A program made the position numbers and the translations under genes. From positions 1 to 38,346 of the IMG/VR virus record IMGVR_UViG_3300050821_023987: a DNA stretch of 38,346 nucleotides, one strand, 5' to 3'. Shown here one piece after another: positions 2,499 through 38,346 of the stretch. Position 1 is the first letter of the stretch; each line of letters opens with the position of its first letter. The notes below the pieces were generated by a model. It worked only from the letters and a program-made list of their open reading frames with translations, was not told the DNA's origin and did not search any database. This DNA comes from a virus.

Positions 2499-3233
2499 TC
2501 AACTGAATTTGACCCACAGGGCACTGGGGCCACATCTATCGCATCCGCCAAATGAAGCGTCAGCAGTCAAACTCTTCCTCTCCACGACAGCGGCGGTCAG
2601 AAAGCAGCGAAGACATAGATAGTCCCCGCTTTGAGACACTTTATCTTCAGCGGAAAAGCCAAATGGGCGACCATGAAATTGCGCCAGATGCATCTGAAGG
2701 CGAGCGCGACCCTCGTTTGAGAGTCGCTTGGCCAACTTCGCCTCCCTCATGTAGGAATTGTGCACGGGAGTGGTCTGGCTCAAGTCCGCGAAACTTTTCT
2801 CACGCACTCCCGGTTCTCCTACTGGAAGATAAAATAGATAATTAACCTCATTCTTTTCGAGAGAACCCCGCTTGCTCTCGCTGAGAGTCCGGGCTGTGTA
2901 CACCGGAGCAACGTGAACGAAATTGCGTCTTTCGAGATCACAAGTTTGTGTAATCACCATGATCGTCCGCTTGGTGGCTTTTGCAAGCACGAGCTCGTCA
3001 GGTGTACTCCATTCCTCTGGCGCGGTACCGGCAACGAAAGGACGGAACGATTTCGGTGTGTTACCAGCAAGTGCCTGTGCGAGCGTTACCGGAAAGCTTG
3101 GTCGGAGCAGGACCCATTTGCCGCTCCCAGCGGGCGGCATGAAGACGACCGGAACATTGTCCAAGATATCGCCTTGGAAGAAGCCGGTTGGATCAGGATT
3201 AAGATCGTACCAATCAGCCGCATCAATAATCAT
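2499..3233 (-). CDS. Unknown protein with ITQTCDL motif (244 aa)
   Basis: Soluble protein of unknown function. Key visible features are an N-terminal GFFQGDILDNVPVVFMPP stretch (residues 18-35), a strongly hydrophobic strand leading into ITQTCDLE in the first half, and a C-terminal half rich in basic helices (YMREAKLAKRLSNEGR) with several cysteines near the end (CLRC, CDRC). Proteins with a 'GDI...VP...(I/V)(S/T)Q(T/S)CDL' layout recur in accessory regions of many bacteria, as far as I recall, without an assigned role. It follows the 119-residue gene by 14 bases and the SDH_sah-type protease gene before that, so the three form one operon. The conserved Cys-Asp could be catalytic or metal-binding; this is a guess. 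Confidence 0.6.
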   Translation of the reverse strand: MIIDAADWYDLNPDPTGFFQGDILDNVPVVFMPPAGSGKWVLLRPSFPVTLAQALAGNTPKSFRPFVAGTAPEEWSTPDELVLAKATKRTIMVITQTCDLERRNFVHVAPVYTARTLSESKRGSLEKNEVNYLFYLPVGEPGVREKSFADLSQTTPVHNSYMREAKLAKRLSNEGRARLQMHLAQFHGRPFGFSAEDKVSQSGDYLCLRCFLTAAVVERKSLTADASFGGCDRCGPSALWVKFS

Positions 3234-3247
3234 GCTGCCGCGCAGCC

Positions 3248-3607
3248 CTAACGGGGGAATCCATATCCGAGCTCAGGCCCCACATCGTGCTCACTTGGCT
3301 CATCTGGTTCCGGAGAATATGCAATGAGATTCAGTACCGCGATTTGCAGCGGGTCGTCTTGATTTCCCGAAAAGAGCGGCAATTGCTCCTTTGCTGATGG
3401 CTCGTACAGCAAAGGCTCTTGGAACTTTAGCCATTCAATTCCGAATACGACCGGAAACGGGTCCAGCGGCACCGTACCAACATTCGGTGTGGGCACGAAG
3501 GCAGCAACGTTAGAGCTGGAAAAAATCCAAGGCGTCGCCTCGCCTGACGTTCGAGTCCACGCTTTCTGCTGCTTAACAATCTCTTCGGCATTCGTTGAAG
3601 TCGTCAT
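3248..3607 (-). CDS. Hypothetical protein in protease operon (119 aa)
   Basis: Not recognised. The middle is aromatic and proline-rich (WIFSSSNVAAFVPTPNVGTVPLDPFPVVFGIEWLKF) and the C-terminus is acidic (PDEPSEHDVGPELGYG). I start it at the ATG at 3607, which overlaps the stop of the protease gene as ATGA and has GGAG 7 bases upstream; an ATG at 3619 would add four residues. The tight overlap implies translational coupling with the protease gene, so the product may be its partner or substrate. No membrane segment. Confidence 0.55.
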   Translation of the reverse strand: MTTSTNAEEIVKQQKAWTRTSGEATPWIFSSSNVAAFVPTPNVGTVPLDPFPVVFGIEWLKFQEPLLYEPSAKEQLPLFSGNQDDPLQIAVLNLIAYSPEPDEPSEHDVGPELGYGFPR

Positions 3608-4623
3608 GATTTGCTCCATCCCATATCCAGAATCTGCTCTTGGAAGCCTGTGGCTTGCGGCATTCCCGGAATTTGACCGGGGGCGAACCTTCGAACGATT
3701 TTCTTGGTTCTATATGTGAACCCAACATCCGCGCTCTCGATGAAGGCTCCTTCTATTTCGATTGTCTTTACGGACTCGACGCCCAAAGCGATGTCAGGGT
3801 TGTAGGGTGTGTCGAGTTGAAGTGCGTCTGCATATCCTCTGAAGCACTTCCACAATTGCTTCTCCAACTCGTCAGTTGCCTCTGTCACTTCCAACGCTAT
3901 GACCTTCTTCGCCTCACGGCGACCAATTATGTAATCGTGTGAATACAGCTCCTTTGTCAGCACCTTAACGATGGCTTCAATTTCCTTCTTTTTTGAAACC
4001 GGGTCCATATGAAAAGCCAGCAACTTGGACGCCAGAAGTTTTATCTGCTCTTTGGCTCTGTACACTTGTCCAAGAGCCATCGGCTGCACCGTATCGGAAA
4101 GCTTCCTAAAAACCTCGATCATCCCCGGACCAGCCTTGATGTTTGCCTCTTCTCGCGCCAAGTTGAGGTAGGAGGCAACATCCTCAACGCTGACTGGCAA
4201 ATACTGAAGCTGGCCGGGCTGCGCTGGGTTCTGAGCCATCGGATTGAATGGACTTGTGATTGTGGGATCGACCGGACTCAATTGCGCCATTGGACCCATG
4301 ACAATCTCATCCGCCCCAAGTGCCAGAAGTGTCGCGGTGCTGTGTGCTTTGAACGGAATTAGCACCGAGAAGCGACTGCAATATTCCCGAATGAGGTTGG
4401 TCAGCCCCCAAGCAGCCATCGTTAGTCCACCTATGCTGTATAGCACCAGATCAATCTGCTGCACCTTTCCAATGCGGCTTAGGGCCTCATAAAAATACGG
4501 GAACACGTCCATCCCAATCCGGGTCTCTGCACCCCCTCGGTCGCCGGTCAAATAAGCGATGACGCGGGTGCCGCGAAGGTGTTCGAGTTGCTTCAGTTCT
4601 TCTCGCCGTTCGTCAACGGTCAT
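3604..4623 (-). CDS. SDH_sah-type serine protease (ClpP/SppA fold)
   Basis: A 339-residue protein of the serine-dehydrogenase-proteinase family (ClpP/crotonase fold, related to SppA). A helical N-terminus leads to the hallmark LVLYSIGGLTMAA (residues 59-71), where the two glycines (65, 66) form the oxyanion region. This is followed by FKAHSTATLLALGADEIVMG, with Ser95 as likely nucleophile, and AQLSPVDP. The C-terminal third is charged and helical. It lacks a signal peptide or membrane span, so it should act in the cytoplasm. It is the first gene of a three-gene operon (next gene overlaps by 4 bases). Family members are peptidases with poorly known substrates. Its presence in prophage cargo next to the unknown ITQTCDL protein suggests a role in host takeover or defence; that is inference. 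Confidence 0.8.
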   Translation of the reverse strand: MTVDERREELKQLEHLRGTRVIAYLTGDRGGAETRIGMDVFPYFYEALSRIGKVQQIDLVLYSIGGLTMAAWGLTNLIREYCSRFSVLIPFKAHSTATLLALGADEIVMGPMAQLSPVDPTITSPFNPMAQNPAQPGQLQYLPVSVEDVASYLNLAREEANIKAGPGMIEVFRKLSDTVQPMALGQVYRAKEQIKLLASKLLAFHMDPVSKKKEIEAIVKVLTKELYSHDYIIGRREAKKVIALEVTEATDELEKQLWKCFRGYADALQLDTPYNPDIALGVESVKTIEIEGAFIESADVGFTYRTKKIVRRFAPGQIPGMPQATGFQEQILDMGWSKS

Positions 4624-5164: not shown

Positions 5165-5461
5165 ATGACGCTACAATATTCGCTGATGGATTACGAACAC
5201 TGGCTCGATGAAGTCAAGGCGGCACTCGACTCGGTCAACATGCCGATGATCGACTGGCAGGGCGTGTGGCCATTCGACTTTCAAGCTGAATATGACTCGG
5301 GAACCAAACCCCACGATGCGGCAATGAGGGCGAACCGATACTGGTGGCGCGAGCAGAATAAGTCTCTGAAGCAAGACTGTCGGGAGAGCAAAGACTGCTG
5401 GTTGCCCCGTGGGCATCGAGGAGTTTGTCAGCCTGTAGCGGAGAATATCGCCCGCCGATGA
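5165..5461 (+). CDS. Hypothetical protein (98 aa)
   Basis: Not recognised. An acidic, tryptophan-rich soluble protein (MDYEHWLDEVKAALDSV, then DWQGVWPFDFQ and RYWWREQ) ending in a Cys-containing tail (DCRESKDCWLPRGHRGVCQ) that could bind metal. The frame is open back to 4922, but I start at 5165 because the upstream translation looks random; 5186 is another possibility. Its stop overlaps the next start as ATGA, so it is the first gene of a three-gene operon with the GNAT-DUF2314 fusion. Confidence 0.55.
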   Translation: MTLQYSLMDYEHWLDEVKAALDSVNMPMIDWQGVWPFDFQAEYDSGTKPHDAAMRANRYWWREQNKSLKQDCRESKDCWLPRGHRGVCQPVAENIARR

Positions 5462-6078
5462 CGCATCGTGACCAATCCGTTTCGAAGAACCTCACCGAAT
5501 TCATGCGCGCTGTGTGGGCCGAGACTGAGCCTAATCCGCTTAATAACCGTGAGCGCATCTATCAAAATCAAGTCGCAATCGAAGTATCGCCGTTCGGAGA
5601 TGCCATTCGCTTACAACACCTCCGGGTGCTCACGAATGTTCGAGCAGGACACGGCAGTCGGACAATGCAATGGCTCTGTGGCCTTGCCGACAAACATGGA
5701 GTGATATTGAGGGCGACGGCAAAATCCACGGACAAGAAGAGGATGAGCAGCCAGCAACTGAAGGCTTGGTACAAGAGACTGGGCTTCAGCCTTACAGGCA
5801 ATGATGTGGAACGCCTGCCCGTGTCCTCGCCAACTTACCAGCGAGGCGACTATGTGAAAGTCGAGTTCCCGGACGAAACGACGGGGATTGGCGAATGGAT
5901 GTGGATTCGTGTCCATCGCTGCGACGAAGAGAAGAAGCTCGTCTTTGGTACGCTCGACAATGAGCCAGTGAACGACTACGGCGGCAATGTTGAACTCGGT
6001 TCGGAACTCGCCGTCGCCTACTCCCAGATTCGAGAGCACAAGAAGCCGACCGAGTTCACGAAGCAAAGACCGTGCTGA
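5458..6078 (+). CDS. GNAT-like acetyltransferase fused to DUF2314-like domain
   Basis: A 206-residue protein with two regions. Residues about 38-112 read as a GNAT acetyltransferase: a core strand (IRLQHLRVLTNV), the acetyl-CoA loop RAGHGSRTM, a helix, and the closing LKAWYKRLGF that is typical of GNAT motif B. Residues about 130-195 (YVKVEFPDE, GEWMWIRVHR, FGTLDNEP, GSELAVAYSQI) resemble DUF2314, a small beta domain of unknown role. The ATG overlaps the previous stop (ATGA) and the next gene overlaps its end by 7 bases, so translation is coupled across all three. The substrate of the acetyltransferase is unknown; a role in modifying a host or toxin protein is only a suggestion. Confidence 0.65.
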   Translation: MTHRDQSVSKNLTEFMRAVWAETEPNPLNNRERIYQNQVAIEVSPFGDAIRLQHLRVLTNVRAGHGSRTMQWLCGLADKHGVILRATAKSTDKKRMSSQQLKAWYKRLGFSLTGNDVERLPVSSPTYQRGDYVKVEFPDETTGIGEWMWIRVHRCDEEKKLVFGTLDNEPVNDYGGNVELGSELAVAYSQIREHKKPTEFTKQRPC

Positions 6079-6386
6079 AGCTCACCAATGTCGTGGTTCG
6101 GAATGTGCGTGATCGTGACGGCAACAAACTTGGCTGCGTAATTGAACCGCACGATGGCACCGAAGTTGGAGTGATTGTGGCGGCACGAGTCGCTACGGAT
6201 CGGATGTATGCCGAATACTCTGAGGCGTCAAACATCGAAAGCCGAATCTGCGCAACTGATGTCAGCGGAAAACCGAAGTGGGCCGTGTCACCAAACTTCC
6301 TTCATCTGGCCGAGATAGGCACGGAAGAAGCGTCATACATCTGGGGCGACCTTCACGCTCACAAGAGTCGGGGATTGACTCGATGA
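6072..6386 (+). CDS. Hypothetical protein (104 aa)
   Basis: Not recognised. Small, probably beta-rich protein (LTNVVVRNVRDRDGNKLGCVIEPHDGTEVGVIVAARVATDRM). I start it at the GTG at 6072, which overlaps the end of the GNAT-DUF2314 gene by 7 bases; no better start exists nearby. Last gene of the operon. Its 3' end overlaps that of the minus-strand restriction operon by 28 bases, so the two operons collide tail to tail with no room for a terminator. Confidence 0.5.
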   Translation: MLKLTNVVVRNVRDRDGNKLGCVIEPHDGTEVGVIVAARVATDRMYAEYSEASNIESRICATDVSGKPKWAVSPNFLHLAEIGTEEASYIWGDLHAHKSRGLTR

Positions 6387-7078
6387 TTCGCTCCCATGAT
6401 GTGCTGAATGTCCGCCACCAGAGCAGCGAGGTCACGCATCAGCGGATTGCCATTGATGTTGGTGAACGCCATGACGTTCGCTGGAAGCGCCTGAATGAGT
6501 GCGGCTGGTGCGTAGATAGCATTGAAGCCCCGGTAGGCGTATGACACCAGTCGGTCGTAGCTGAACTCATCGGGTTGGTTAAATAACCCCCAGCCAACGG
6601 TCGGAGAGAGAAGATTTCCTGAACCACTGGCCAAAAGCCGCTCTCGTGCGGCGAAGCTTTTTACGCTGACGATGATATTGAATGGATCTCCCAGCAAGTA
6701 GAAGTCACCAACCCACTTCCAATAGTCAGGCATCCTGTCGAACGTACCGCCGTTCGGCCCAGCGACACCCGCCTCAAGTCCAAATCGGCAAAGCCTCTCA
6801 GAGATATTTCCCGTAGTGGCAGCGGGGATTGGGTTTTGAGCATTAGCATTGACTTGCTGAAGGTGAGCAACTATCGGATCAATCTGGGCATAAATCGCAG
6901 CCGAAGGCTGACCCACCAGTCCCAGTGCTGCGAGTGCGGCATTGACGTGTCCCGCTGCGGCCATAAGGGAAGTATGCAGTTCTGGCCGCTGGTTGCATAG
7001 GTCTGGTACTCGAAAAGTTACTTGGGAAAGTGAGAGCGCAGGCCTTGCATCAGAATATCTGGTTCCTTGGTCTGGCAT
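6359..7078 (-). CDS. Fourth protein of restriction operon, possible nuclease (239 aa)
   Basis: Not firmly recognised. The N-terminal half is helical (VPDLCNQRPELHTSLMAAAGHVNAALAALG). The second half has a well-ordered core: WVGDFYLLGDPFNIIVSVKSF, followed by an arginine-containing helix, SPTVGWGLFNQPDEF and RGFNAIYAP. The spacing of the Asp in GD and the Lys in VSVKSF is reminiscent of a PD-(D/E)xK nuclease centre with a Ser at the middle position, but this is weak. It begins inside the end of vsr (about 60-base overlap; ATG 7078, weak ribosome site), so it is the last gene of the methyltransferase-nuclease-vsr operon. It could be a second restriction enzyme or an accessory subunit. Confidence 0.55.
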   Translation of the reverse strand: MPDQGTRYSDARPALSLSQVTFRVPDLCNQRPELHTSLMAAAGHVNAALAALGLVGQPSAAIYAQIDPIVAHLQQVNANAQNPIPAATTGNISERLCRFGLEAGVAGPNGGTFDRMPDYWKWVGDFYLLGDPFNIIVSVKSFAARERLLASGSGNLLSPTVGWGLFNQPDEFSYDRLVSYAYRGFNAIYAPAALIQALPANVMAFTNINGNPLMRDLAALVADIQHIMGANHRVNPRLL

Positions 7079-7425
7079 TCCCAAAAGGTGAGCACTTTCC
7101 AGCCGAGCCTCCGCAACTGTTTCGCATTTCTCTTGTCACGAGCGGCATTCCCTGATCTCTTCATGTGCCAGAACTCGGCGTTCGTGGCTGGCACGACCCG
7201 ACCGTACCGGCATTTGTGCATGTGGAAGAAGCAGCCGTGTACGAAAATCGCAACCTTGCGCCCCGGCATGACAATATCCGGCTTGCCCGGCAAATCAGTG
7301 CGGTGCAGTCGGTAGCGTAGACCCATCTCGCAAAGCAGCCTTCGCACCACGATTTCGGGCTGGGTGTTCTTAGACCGGATCGCAGCCATGTTGCGGCTGC
7401 GCTGTTCTGGAGTGTGAACGTCCAT
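7018..7425 (-). CDS. vsr: Very short patch repair endonuclease
   Basis: Vsr nicks DNA next to T:G mismatches that arise when 5-methylcytosine deaminates, starting repair at Dcm-type sites. The 135-residue protein has the full family layout: TPEQRSRNMAAIRSKNT at the N-terminus, PGKPDIVMP (active-site Asp), VAIFVHGCFFHMHKC with zinc-ligand His/Cys residues, and FWHMKRSGNAARDKRN. Length is normal for Vsr (about 130-155). Its ATG overlaps the stop of the EcoRII-like nuclease gene (ATGA). Its presence fits a C5 methyltransferase in the same operon and tells that methylated inner cytosines are protected from mutation. No missing key residue is apparent. Confidence 0.93.
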   Translation of the reverse strand: MDVHTPEQRSRNMAAIRSKNTQPEIVVRRLLCEMGLRYRLHRTDLPGKPDIVMPGRKVAIFVHGCFFHMHKCRYGRVVPATNAEFWHMKRSGNAARDKRNAKQLRRLGWKVLTFWECQTKEPDILMQGLRSHFPK

Positions 7426-8585
7426 CAGGCAAGCCGTTGTTTAACTTCCTGCACAAATCCCTTCACATCGAGAATCGTCATCGGACTCTTAGGATACTGC
7501 TTATGGAGTCTCGATGGAACGATGAGGGTTACGTGGGAGTCGTGCATCTGCGTCAACTGCTTGCTGCTGATGCCCTGCTGAATTGTGAGTATGTGTTTCT
7601 CAGTAACCCGCTTGGCCTCGTGTACCACCTGTCGCCAGCGATCTTTGCATGTGGTCTTCACACCCACGACAATGAGCTTGTTAGTCGGGTAATTGTGGTC
7701 GTTGTAGGCTTCGGCGCTCGGGATCACGATGTCCGGCTCTCCGTCGAGTTTCGGCCTTATCACGTGCGGGATACCACTCTTCTTTAAAATAAATTCCATG
7801 TGGTTTTCAAGGGATCGTCCGGCTCTCGATTTTCGGCGATTCATTATGCTGCTGGCCGTCCGCAGGAAATCGTCTACATCCTTGAACACCCGCACAATTT
7901 CCGCTTGGCAAAGCTGGCGCTCAGCGAGGCGGAACAAACGATACTCGGCATCCATGCACTGCATCAGCAGTTCATCCAAAGGCAACACATCAAACTTCTT
8001 TATGCATTCGGTCAGAGCATCTCGTGCTTCCTTGCTGAAGATCGCACCAGTGGGGAAGGCATTCAGCACCTCCACGAACTTGCGGAACTTTTTCTCAACG
8101 CACTGGTCTTCGTCCTCGACTTGAGGTTCGCCGTGGCGATACACGGCCCAGTTCTTTGTGATCTGAACGCCGAGCGCCGCTTCCATGTCCTCGATGTCGG
8201 TGTCACGGTCAAGAACAAAGGCGCTGAACTTTTGATGCGTCTCGGGAATCAGGATAAGGAGATCGCCGACGTTGTCAAAGGTCAGGAATGGAAAATCCTT
8301 GCCAAACCGTGTCAGCCTGTATTCGCTGCGGGTACCTTTGCCGTACCACTTCACACGAGAGTCTGTTACTCGGCCATCCTGCCACGTAACCGTGACGGAA
8401 GTCTCGTGGTTCTTACCCTTCTCAGGTTTATGCGGAGTGAACATCTGCCAGACAGCTTTCGGTAGGTAGTAGCCGCATTGATGTCCGCCCGTCAGACCAA
8501 CATCGTTGGGGGAGATGAACTTGACGATGGCATTGCCCACACGGACTGACTCGGCGATAGCTCTTTCGCAATATGGTGATGCCAT
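7425..8585 (-). CDS. EcoRII-like type II restriction endonuclease
   Basis: About 386 residues. The N-terminal part carries the EcoRII-N type DNA-binding/effector domain (VKFISPNDVGLTGGHQCGYYLPK, GKGTRSEYRLTRFG). The C-terminal domain shows the PD-(D/E)xK centre of EcoRII: GEPDIVIPSAEAY, then LIVVGVKTTCKDRWRQV and a final ILTIQQGIS. EcoRII recognises CCWGG and cuts before the first C; this enzyme probably recognises the same or a similar site, which the sequence cannot prove. I start at ATG 8585, five bases after the methyltransferase stop; the longer frame to 8672 starts with TTG and would overlap the methyltransferase gene by 82 bases. The stop overlaps vsr. Confidence 0.88.
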   Translation of the reverse strand: MASPYCERAIAESVRVGNAIVKFISPNDVGLTGGHQCGYYLPKAVWQMFTPHKPEKGKNHETSVTVTWQDGRVTDSRVKWYGKGTRSEYRLTRFGKDFPFLTFDNVGDLLILIPETHQKFSAFVLDRDTDIEDMEAALGVQITKNWAVYRHGEPQVEDEDQCVEKKFRKFVEVLNAFPTGAIFSKEARDALTECIKKFDVLPLDELLMQCMDAEYRLFRLAERQLCQAEIVRVFKDVDDFLRTASSIMNRRKSRAGRSLENHMEFILKKSGIPHVIRPKLDGEPDIVIPSAEAYNDHNYPTNKLIVVGVKTTCKDRWRQVVHEAKRVTEKHILTIQQGISSKQLTQMHDSHVTLIVPSRLHKQYPKSPMTILDVKGFVQEVKQRLA

Positions 8586-8590
8586 CTGGT

Positions 8591-9805
8591 TCAACTCGCT
8601 ACGGCGTGTTGCTTGTGTCCATTCGAGGAGTTTTTCAGAAGACAGCCGTTCTGAGAACGTGTAAGCTGCCAACGCATGGTCGCGATGATTTGCTCACCCA
8701 CTGCCTTTGCGACCTTCGGGACCACTGCATTCCCGAACTGCCTGTATGCCTGCGTATCCGACACCACGATCTTCTTGTCATCCGGGAAACCCATGAGCCG
8801 AGCGCATTCTCTCGGTGTGAGCCGACGTGGGGTCTTCCCGCCTTGCTTAATAAGAATTTCTGATCCGTCCTTGTAGTATCGGGCGCTCAGCGTTCGAGCA
8901 ACTCCCTCTGGGTCTGCGATACCGAAGCCGAACCCATTCCCCTTCAGCCGATGGCGCTCGGCATAGGCCTGCAAATACGTCCACAGATGATCGGTGAGTG
9001 TGTACTTCGTGTCCGGCGTGCGCTCCAATATATCCTTGAACTTTGGGCGTTGGGGCGGCGGACTAGGGAACCGGAATGGCGGATTCTCCCCAAACACCTT
9101 CTTGTCGAAGCAGACAATGTAGATACGCTCTCGATGCTGCGGCACCCAGCCTGCGGCGTCTATGATTTTGAAGTTGACCGCATATCCGAGATCGACCAAA
9201 GCGTCGTAGATCGTGCTCCACGTCCGGCCTTGGTCATGGGACTGGAGGTTCTTTACATTCTCAAGGAACAGGACCGGAGGCCGCTTTACCTCAACGATGG
9301 ACACAATGTTGAAGAAAAGCGTGCCCTGAATCTCACACTTGAATCCATGCGCCTTACCGAGGCTCTTCTTCTTGCTCACTCCAGCGATAGAAAATGGCTG
9401 GCATGGAAAACCAGCAGCCAAAATGTCGTGATCCGGGATGTCCTTGGGTTTGACCTGACGGATGTCACCCTGTGGAGTTTCCCCGAACCATGCCGTGTAG
9501 GTCTTCTGCGAATATCTATCCCATTCACACGAATAGGCGCACTTGCCACCCAGTTCTTTCAGTGCGAATCTGAAACCGCCGATTCCTGCAAACAAATCTA
9601 CGAAGGTGAACGGTAGAGTGTCAGGGACGGGAACTTCTATGGTGGACGGCTCGAACGGCAAGAACGGGCCTTGCTGTGCAGCACTGGCTTGATGAAGCAA
9701 CGACAACAGGAATTCCTGCTGGCTCATTTGCTGTTGTTGGCGCTGTTGTTTTATCCACTGGTGGACTTCAACGGGAACATTGCGCACCAACAGGCGGTCG
9801 CTCAT
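8591..9805 (-). CDS. dcm: DNA cytosine-5 methyltransferase with N-terminal RHH-like domain
   Basis: Protects the host from the EcoRII-like nuclease by methylating cytosine. Family motifs appear in order: motif I FVDLFAGIGGF (68-78), motif IV GFPCQPFS with catalytic Cys135, motif VI LENV (181-184), motif VIII QHRERIY (223-229), and motif X RQFGNAVVP near the end. The target-recognition region lies between VIII and IX. Residues 1-40 are unusual: LLVRNVPVEVHQWIKQ followed by SQQEFLLSLLHQA reads like a ribbon-helix-helix DNA-binding domain, then a short linker. Such a domain could repress its own promoter, as the HTH-bearing SsoII/EcoRII-type methyltransferases do. First gene of a four-gene operon; AGAGG lies 11 bases before the ATG. 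Confidence 0.93.
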   Translation of the reverse strand: MSDRLLVRNVPVEVHQWIKQQRQQQQMSQQEFLLSLLHQASAAQQGPFLPFEPSTIEVPVPDTLPFTFVDLFAGIGGFRFALKELGGKCAYSCEWDRYSQKTYTAWFGETPQGDIRQVKPKDIPDHDILAAGFPCQPFSIAGVSKKKSLGKAHGFKCEIQGTLFFNIVSIVEVKRPPVLFLENVKNLQSHDQGRTWSTIYDALVDLGYAVNFKIIDAAGWVPQHRERIYIVCFDKKVFGENPPFRFPSPPPQRPKFKDILERTPDTKYTLTDHLWTYLQAYAERHRLKGNGFGFGIADPEGVARTLSARYYKDGSEILIKQGGKTPRRLTPRECARLMGFPDDKKIVVSDTQAYRQFGNAVVPKVAKAVGEQIIATMRWQLTRSQNGCLLKNSSNGHKQHAVAS

Positions 9806-37080: not shown

Positions 37081-38346
37081 ATGTCAACGGCACCAGCCAC
37101 GCCCAAGTTGCTACCTTTCCCCACCAACGGTACCCTTGTTCCCGCACGGACGATACGGCGGAGAGGACCAAGTATGTCTCGCCGTACAGGACAAACAGGA
37201 AGCGTGTTTCAACAGAACCAAATCTCGTGGAACCCAGCAGCCCCGGCTTACGGGCGCTTCTGGCTTGACGCGCCGGAGGGCCGTAAGCGCCGCGTGCTTT
37301 CTCTTGGGAACTGTGCCACGCGCACCGTCGCCCGGCGAAAGCTCCGCGAGTACATCGAAGCCGAAGGCATCAATAATAAGGATACCTTCATCGCATCAAC
37401 CACGCCGGGGATGACGTTTCGTGAGCAGGCGAAGGTCTGGATGTCTTCGCTGGCTACGCGCCGACGTCGCCCCGTCAAACCCGCCACACTTTTCGGCTGG
37501 CAGCATGCGCTCGACAAATGGGTTCTTCCGACCCTCGGTGATATACCGCTGGCGGAGGTGTCCAATGCGGCGCTCAAGAAGCTGGTCGAGGCAATGGCGG
37601 CTGGAGGGCTTGCCGCTAAGACAATCGTGAACTATTCGCAGGTTCCGAAGATGGTCGTCGCATCGGTCGTCAGCGATGAGGGCGAACAGGTCTACCCGCG
37701 AACATGGAATCACGACTTTGTGGGAATGCCAATCATCGACAAAAACAAGCAGCATCGCCCCACCGTTACCGAGTCGGAGGTCGGTGAGATCACTTCGCAT
37801 CGCTCCTTCCGCCTCGGCGTCCTGTTTACTTTGCTTGCCGGGACAGGATTACGCATCGGCGAAGCTCTCGCTGTGAAGGCGAGCGACTTCACCGATGACT
37901 TCCGGGTGCTGCACGTGACGAGGAGCATCTGGCACGGGCGGGAACAATCTCCCAAGACTCCCTCTGCTGTTCGGGAAGTGGATCTTGCGGAGCCGCTTGC
38001 CGCTGTGGTTCGGGTGTTCGCTGAAGGCAAGGACGGGTATTTGTTCGCCACTCGTTCGGGCCGTCCACTCGGGCACCGTTACGTAAATCGGGCCGCTGGT
38101 GTCGGCGTCCACGCGTTTCGACGCTTTCGCATCGAGACGCTTCGGCGCGCCAGAGTGCCGGAGGACCTAATCGGACTCTGGCTCGGTCACGCTCCGCGCA
38201 CGGTCACCGACCTCTACGCGGAAGGACTGAAGCGCGATACGGTCTGGAGGCGCGAGTGGTGCGACAAGGCCGGACTTGGATTTTCGTGGTCTGGGCTATA
38301 TGGGGCTAGAAACGCGGCGACGGAGAATTTGAAACTAGCCGCGTAA
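37081..38346 (+). CDS. int: Tyrosine recombinase / phage integrase
   Basis: 421 residues catalysing site-specific integration into tRNA-Asn and, with an excisionase, excision. The catalytic set is complete: Arg258 (GTGLRIGEAL), Lys292 (SPKTPSAVREVDL), His344-x-x-Arg347 (HAFRRFR), His370 (GLWLGHAP) and Tyr379 (TDLYAEG). The N-terminal SAM-like domain is at about 110-200. I start it at 37081 (GGAG six bases before); ATG 37174, also with a good site, would shorten it by 31 residues. It ends at the window edge with TAA. No excisionase is recognised. Its orientation points at the att site expected just outside. Confidence 0.93.
   Translation: MSTAPATPKLLPFPTNGTLVPARTIRRRGPSMSRRTGQTGSVFQQNQISWNPAAPAYGRFWLDAPEGRKRRVLSLGNCATRTVARRKLREYIEAEGINNKDTFIASTTPGMTFREQAKVWMSSLATRRRRPVKPATLFGWQHALDKWVLPTLGDIPLAEVSNAALKKLVEAMAAGGLAAKTIVNYSQVPKMVVASVVSDEGEQVYPRTWNHDFVGMPIIDKNKQHRPTVTESEVGEITSHRSFRLGVLFTLLAGTGLRIGEALAVKASDFTDDFRVLHVTRSIWHGREQSPKTPSAVREVDLAEPLAAVVRVFAEGKDGYLFATRSGRPLGHRYVNRAAGVGVHAFRRFRIETLRRARVPEDLIGLWLGHAPRTVTDLYAEGLKRDTVWRREWCDKAGLGFSWSGLYGARNAATENLKLAA
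38292..38308 (+). repeat. GGGCTA repeats at right end of prophage
   Basis: TGGGCTA (38292-38298) and GGGGCTA (38302-38308) lie 10 bases apart inside the last codons of the integrase gene. They resemble the TTGGGCTAT pair near the left end (1123-1143), which has 12-base phasing. Arm-type integrase sites shared by both ends are a possible reading. Confidence 0.4.

Follow-up and report, generated by a model that had tools for sequence, protein, structure and literature searches.

The window analysed here, the whole 38,346-nucleotide stretch of the virus record IMGVR_UViG_3300050821_023987, a prophage, carries at positions 2499-4623 of the minus strand three tightly coupled genes encoding, in that order, an SDH-type serine protease, a small linker protein and a third protein referred to as ITQTCDL. 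Taken together with their relatives, these genes are best read as a probable toxin-antitoxin operon with the ClpP-fold protease as a dedicated third component, where ITQTCDL would be the toxin, probably a divergent PemK/MazF-like one, and the linker protein the antitoxin. The assignment as a putative toxin-antitoxin module is well supported by sequence comparison. A first-pass annotation of the same DNA had suggested a role in defence or host takeover; this was a guess from the location of the genes, and the comparison points instead to a toxin-antitoxin module with its own protease.

Operon layout and the SDH protease

The arrangement of the operon is as the first-pass annotation had given it, with all three open reading frames on the minus strand. 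The protease gene (3604..4623, ATG start, 339 residues) is overlapped by 4 bases by the linker gene (3248..3607, ATG start, 119 residues), which is followed after a gap of 14 bases by the ITQTCDL gene (2499..3233, 244 residues). A longer alternative linker start at 3619 would yield 123 residues; the start at 3607 is favoured because a GGAG sequence is located 6 bases upstream of it. The codon-position GC of the three genes resembles that of the other genes of the phage, and a promoter scan found no sigma-70-like promoter. Neither the linker nor the ITQTCDL protein matched a family in Pfam, NCBIfam, PHROGs or PADLOC, in line with their earlier description as unrecognised, and PADLOC 2.0.0, which covers known anti-phage systems, returned 0 families for all three proteins.

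The neighbouring restriction genes noted earlier were also found, at 7018-9805, where an EcoRII-type restriction-modification set and vsr are encoded on the minus strand: a C5 methyltransferase (8591-9805), an EcoRII-like nuclease (7425-8672) and a Vsr endonuclease (7018-7425), after which comes an unrecognised 241-residue ORF (6359-7084). Two further unrecognised minus-strand ORFs (199 and 123 residues, 4-base overlap) lie downstream of the operon at 1198-2165, and a plus-strand ORF at 5425-6078 has a weak DUF2314 match just over the cut-off. An integrase ORF (37081-38346) extends up to the right-hand end of the record, and the element may therefore be cut there.

The protease matches PF01972 with 62 bits against a cut-off of 31.3 as well as phrog_11747 of PHROGs, and scores 69.3 bits, far below the cut-off of 250, against the NCBIfam equivalog NF047768 (Clp_like_SDH). 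An AlphaFold2 model calculated from 35 aligned sequences displays a ClpP-like fold with a mean pLDDT of 94.7; when this model was compared with known folds, ClpP chains and 1510-N, a protease of archaea, matched at Z 12-13. The earlier description as a ClpP/SppA-fold protease is borne out by both the PF01972 score and the confident model, which adds a C-terminal beta region to the ClpP/SppA/1510-N fold. The best viral matches in the fold search were giant-virus 'serine dehydrogenase proteinases', for example that of Marseillevirus LCMAC101.

Ser95 and Asp119 are present in all 111 non-redundant homologues and His229 in 110 of 110, while Gly65-Gly66, Glu147 and Arg189 are invariant or nearly so. 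Because of its complete conservation, Ser95, already singled out in the first-pass annotation, is a credible nucleophile. Sequence, fold and conserved active site agree, and it is well supported that the component standing beside toxin and antitoxin is a protease. The window protein has its fold and predicted catalytic serine in common with the SDH, SppA, ClpP and 1510-N serine proteases, but differs from other members in the length of its family (~330-340 residues), in the C-terminal beta region and in having a dedicated small partner. Two other assignments were considered and rejected: a head-maturation protease, for which the matches were weak and the gene lies outside the head module, and a housekeeping protease, as the relatives sit in prophages and beside toxins.

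Small partner genes and exchangeable third genes

Scans of viral and genome contigs with single proteins gave no relatives, but alignment-based scans with the protease did, retrieving 138 loci, of which 58 are full-length copies in viral contigs (L005-L062) and 80 are located in genomes spread over many bacterial and archaeal groups. The nearest relative of the window protease, at 53-54%, was found in a Nitrospirota genome (L083). At most loci the protease gene is directly joined to a small ORF, which either abuts its end or overlaps it (overlap in 38 of 71 cases, median gap -4). In a set of Patescibacteria-type loci (L098, L122, L137, L139, L149 and L152) the genes behind the protease differ, encoding other small conserved proteins as well as a coiled-coil or membrane protein; several of these loci adjoin DNA methyltransferases, and the set as a whole may follow a different logic.

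Most prophage relatives lack a toxin gene and encode the protease with just a short tail protein, and consequently the protease-peptide pair must be able to work without a toxin. The short prophage partners are 55-77 residues in length and S/T-rich, and the small partner ORFs are under purifying selection (dN/dS 0.06-0.54 for pairs with estimable dS). In E. coli prophages a 59-residue S/T-rich ORF overlaps the end of the SDH protease gene (L002:5983-6162, L007:6983-7162). RefSeq leaves this ORF unannotated but lists its protease as 'SDH family Clp fold serine proteinase', and the pair is present in 47 of the 5,426 complete E. coli genomes; in annotated examples it is located between the Q antiterminator and the lysis genes on the opposite strand, a prophage accessory position. 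Such conserved toxin-less pairs would suit an arrangement in which the protease itself acts as effector and is inhibited by the small protein, the inhibitor having in some lineages gained toxin-antitoxin cargo by fusion, as an additional addiction device or second effector. This arrangement is nevertheless unlikely, as it leaves unexplained both the repeated fusion of antitoxin-type sequences to the tail and the many unrelated toxin types encoded by the gene that follows.

These third genes were surveyed in the 71 non-redundant loci whose second gene is tail-like, a tail-bearing class that was in part assigned by eye. Where the linker is short (<78 residues, median 62; 47 loci) a Pfam toxin-type gene comes next in 0 of 47, whereas with long linkers (79-164 residues; 24 loci) this is the case in 14 of 24; when the by-eye tail filter is left out, the Pfam toxin-type third genes amount to 14 in ~110 loci. 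The families represented are Fic/Doc (L088, L090, L091), PemK/MazF (L037, L092, L148, L161), PIN (L020, L022, L094) and retropepsin-like aspartyl protease (L109, L113, L135, L144). Inspection by eye added PIN-like (L154), HicA-like (L159) and RelE-like (L146) third genes, and an unnamed family of 103 residues occupies the third position in L083, L086 and L087. Among the 135 other ORFs of these loci none of the same toxin-type families had more than one match, and Fisher's exact test comparing 14 of 22 third genes with at most 4 of 135 other ORFs gave 2e-11, the 22 having been chosen for possessing a third gene. On the protease tree the presence or absence of a toxin requires 8 changes and the toxin type changes at least 13 times, and the third gene is therefore exchangeable cargo.

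The linkers of the relatives reveal how this cargo is attached. Those of L113, L135 and L144 contain a DUF5678 domain starting near residue 77-84, and DUF5678 genes that occur without an SDH protease, examined in one phylum, are mostly 64-108 residues long and often directly beside a retropepsin-like gene. Likewise, the linker of L161 ends in 'VWDTPEEDAAWAHL' and the free-standing MazF antitoxin of L192 ends almost alike, in 'DWSRPEEDAAWAHL'. In combination, these two comparisons show that in these cases a ready-made antitoxin has gained an additional segment at its N terminus. Within one archaeal and bacterial protease clade the segment [AGS]GL[TS]xxxQ[LI][ITV]D is common to linkers that consist of the tail only (L085, L089) and to those bearing a MazF (L092) or Doc (L088) cargo. 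In a search for a universal tail motif the best 14-mer scored 320 against at most 230 in shuffles, a value to which related rows contribute; the motif is strong within clades and loose across the family, and no single universal tail motif is claimed for these reasons.

The window linker itself has no recognisable antitoxin domain among the families of the four collections searched, a tblastn search with it in plasmids found nothing, and its similarity to the linker of L005, confined to short stretches, falls short of significance (BLASTP E 0.10). It does have the position and the coupling of the linkers of its relatives, and on these grounds it is a predicted antitoxin with an N-terminal protease-recognition tail. 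The lack of significant pairwise similarity between this linker and its counterparts is what would be seen if the operon held three unrelated accessory genes that merely occupy a common transcript. That explanation is very improbable: the same gene order is retained in L005 and L103 despite divergent sequences, the coupling of the linker extends across the family, and the third place shows a strong excess of toxin genes. Indeed, because this order recurs in those two loci, the three-gene layout is not attributed to chance. The view of the three genes as one system, put forward in the first-pass annotation, accordingly stands, since the partners do co-occur with the protease, a linker and an ITQTCDL relative being found together in L005 and L103 and, with an additional TIGR04255 protein, in L127. 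The linker and ITQTCDL genes are moreover adjacent and closely coupled, 14 bases apart and in the same order in relatives, as are the genes of type II toxin-antitoxin pairs.

The ITQTCDL protein

The third protein of the window belongs to a family for which an alignment of 14 rows could be assembled. A Q-G-D motif and a cysteine are retained in all 14 rows and a late arginine in 13 of 13, together with a C-[DE] pattern. A profile lacking the window row retrieved the window protein with an E value of 1e-24 among 260 window frames, the source alignment having been built with the window present. An alignment of 8 rows was too divergent for use, a viral scan with a 3-row alignment (A10) gave no relatives, and tblastn searches with the protein in plasmids and phages found nothing. 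The window protein also contains a C-terminal CxxC...CxxC stretch (2499-2600), possibly a zinc ribbon, that is absent in its relatives.

In every locus examined the ITQTCDL gene is the third gene. It follows a protease and a linker in the window, L005 and L103, and a TIGR04255 protein and a linker in L165, L167, L168, L198, L199, L210 and L211; L164 encodes an ITQTCDL relative with an unnamed protein. The two operon classes are joined in L127:1710-3399, where an SDH protease, a TIGR04255 protein, a linker and an ITQTCDL relative occur together. By eye, TIGR04255 operons with other third genes could be recognised, HEPN-like in L195 and zeta-like in L203, and the operons headed by TIGR04255 genes, those with ITQTCDL included, are possibly a parallel tripartite toxin-antitoxin class.

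While the third gene of 14 relatives can be placed in a known toxin family, the window ITQTCDL protein has no Pfam family at E 0.1, and thus no PF02452 call, its link to such a family being a suggestive profile match to MazF. An hhalign comparison of the ITQTCDL profile with PemK/MazF gave a probability of 38% (P 3.3e-4), end to end and collinear over 103 columns. The score of 28.8 exceeds the maximum of 14.5 obtained with 150 column shuffles and the 12.0 obtained with a reversed profile, and is also above the scores for four other third-gene families. A profile search of the PDB returned three weak matches (E 0.02 to 0.59) of no use, and an AlphaFold model calculated from 4 rows reached a pLDDT of 36, for which reason no claim on the fold is drawn from it. 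Judged from the profile comparison, a MazF-like fold of the ITQTCDL protein is likely but unproven.

Proposed mechanism and relation to known systems

The tail found clade-wide, the fusions of tail and antitoxin, and the swaps of toxin type are as would be expected of a protease that recognises the tail and of a toxin-antitoxin part that serves as interchangeable cargo, and it is this reading that we favour. The C-terminal part of the linker would neutralise the ITQTCDL toxin, while its N-terminal tail would serve as the handle by which the protease recognises the antitoxin. In a healthy cell the tail-held antitoxin would keep the toxin silent; a trigger, for which phage infection and loss of the element are plausible candidates, would activate the protease, which would then cut the tail or the antitoxin, so that toxin is freed and growth stops. 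The toxicity of ITQTCDL, its neutralisation and the cleavage of the linker are inferred, and the direction of control, the trigger, the benefit of the module and any defence against phages likewise belong to this proposal. The least certain step is that the cleavage would be activating rather than a protective processing.

By analogy, the nearest precedent for the window module would be the toxin-antitoxin-chaperone (TAC) modules, exemplified by Mtb HigBA-SecB-TA and CmdTAC, in which the antitoxin tail is known as ChAD. In these, the antitoxin has an addiction segment to which a SecB-like chaperone binds (PMC6377645). The likeness comprises a three-gene operon, a third component that is combined with several toxin types, and an antitoxin with an extra recognition segment, the latter seen here in relatives with DUF5678 and MazF cargo. 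In contrast to TAC, the third component is a ClpP-fold PF01972 protein with a conserved catalytic serine and not SecB, the segment is located at the N terminus of the linker, and the protease gene comes first.

The TAC precedent lends itself to a further explanation, in which the protease matures or protects the antitoxin, either by cutting off an inhibitory tail or by holding the antitoxin as SecB does, and in which loss or inhibition of the protease frees the toxin. Its gene logic would be that of TAC modules, whose antitoxins carry a chaperone-addiction extension (PMC6377645); the tail is added to otherwise complete antitoxins, and in other operons TIGR04255 stands instead of the protease beside a putative ITQTCDL toxin. 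However, a pure chaperone role does not explain the full conservation of Ser95, Gly65-Gly66 and Asp119, and the toxin-less pairs have nothing to be addicted to. Such protease addiction is consequently regarded as improbable, if less so than a protease acting as effector, and release of the toxin through cleavage by the protease remains the preferred reading.

Two other types of system resemble the module in part. RosmerTA employs an ImmA-type metalloprotease antitoxin with varied toxins, and like the operon described here combines a protease with exchangeable toxins in modules borne by phages and prophages (PMC10440598). The ImmA protein is however of another protease family and is itself the antitoxin, whereas the present operon has a distinct linker between protease and toxin; an ImmA-type metalloprotease domain is absent from the family matches of the three window proteins. 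The linker and third gene of relatives look like type II pairs (MazEF/PemIK, Phd-Doc, VapBC and DUF5678-retropepsin), to which a protease gene and an N-terminal tail of ~50-75 residues have been added. A search of open-licence papers, with preprints outside its scope, found no published description of the module and nothing pertinent on SDH proteases with toxins, on TIGR04255 or on a toxin-antitoxin-protease system.

More tentatively, and with somewhat less confidence than is placed in the reading of the window operon, the loci may represent a widespread toxin-antitoxin-protease class in which many unrelated antitoxins have acquired the N-terminal tail and the ClpP-fold protease recognises and cuts it to release the toxins. 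The tail-only pairs, including the 59-residue E. coli gene, would then be the minimal form, and ITQTCDL would be a new toxin family common to this class and the parallel one based on TIGR04255.

Antitoxins are classically removed by housekeeping proteases such as Lon and ClpXP. The present operon suggests that toxin release is controlled by a dedicated protease. If this is true, an operon-encoded protease combined with many toxins would constitute a self-contained switch with its own trigger, TAC-like but proteolytic. It would also provide a role for the SDH proteases of prophages, add small unannotated E. coli genes to the known complement, and make ITQTCDL a candidate new toxin family.
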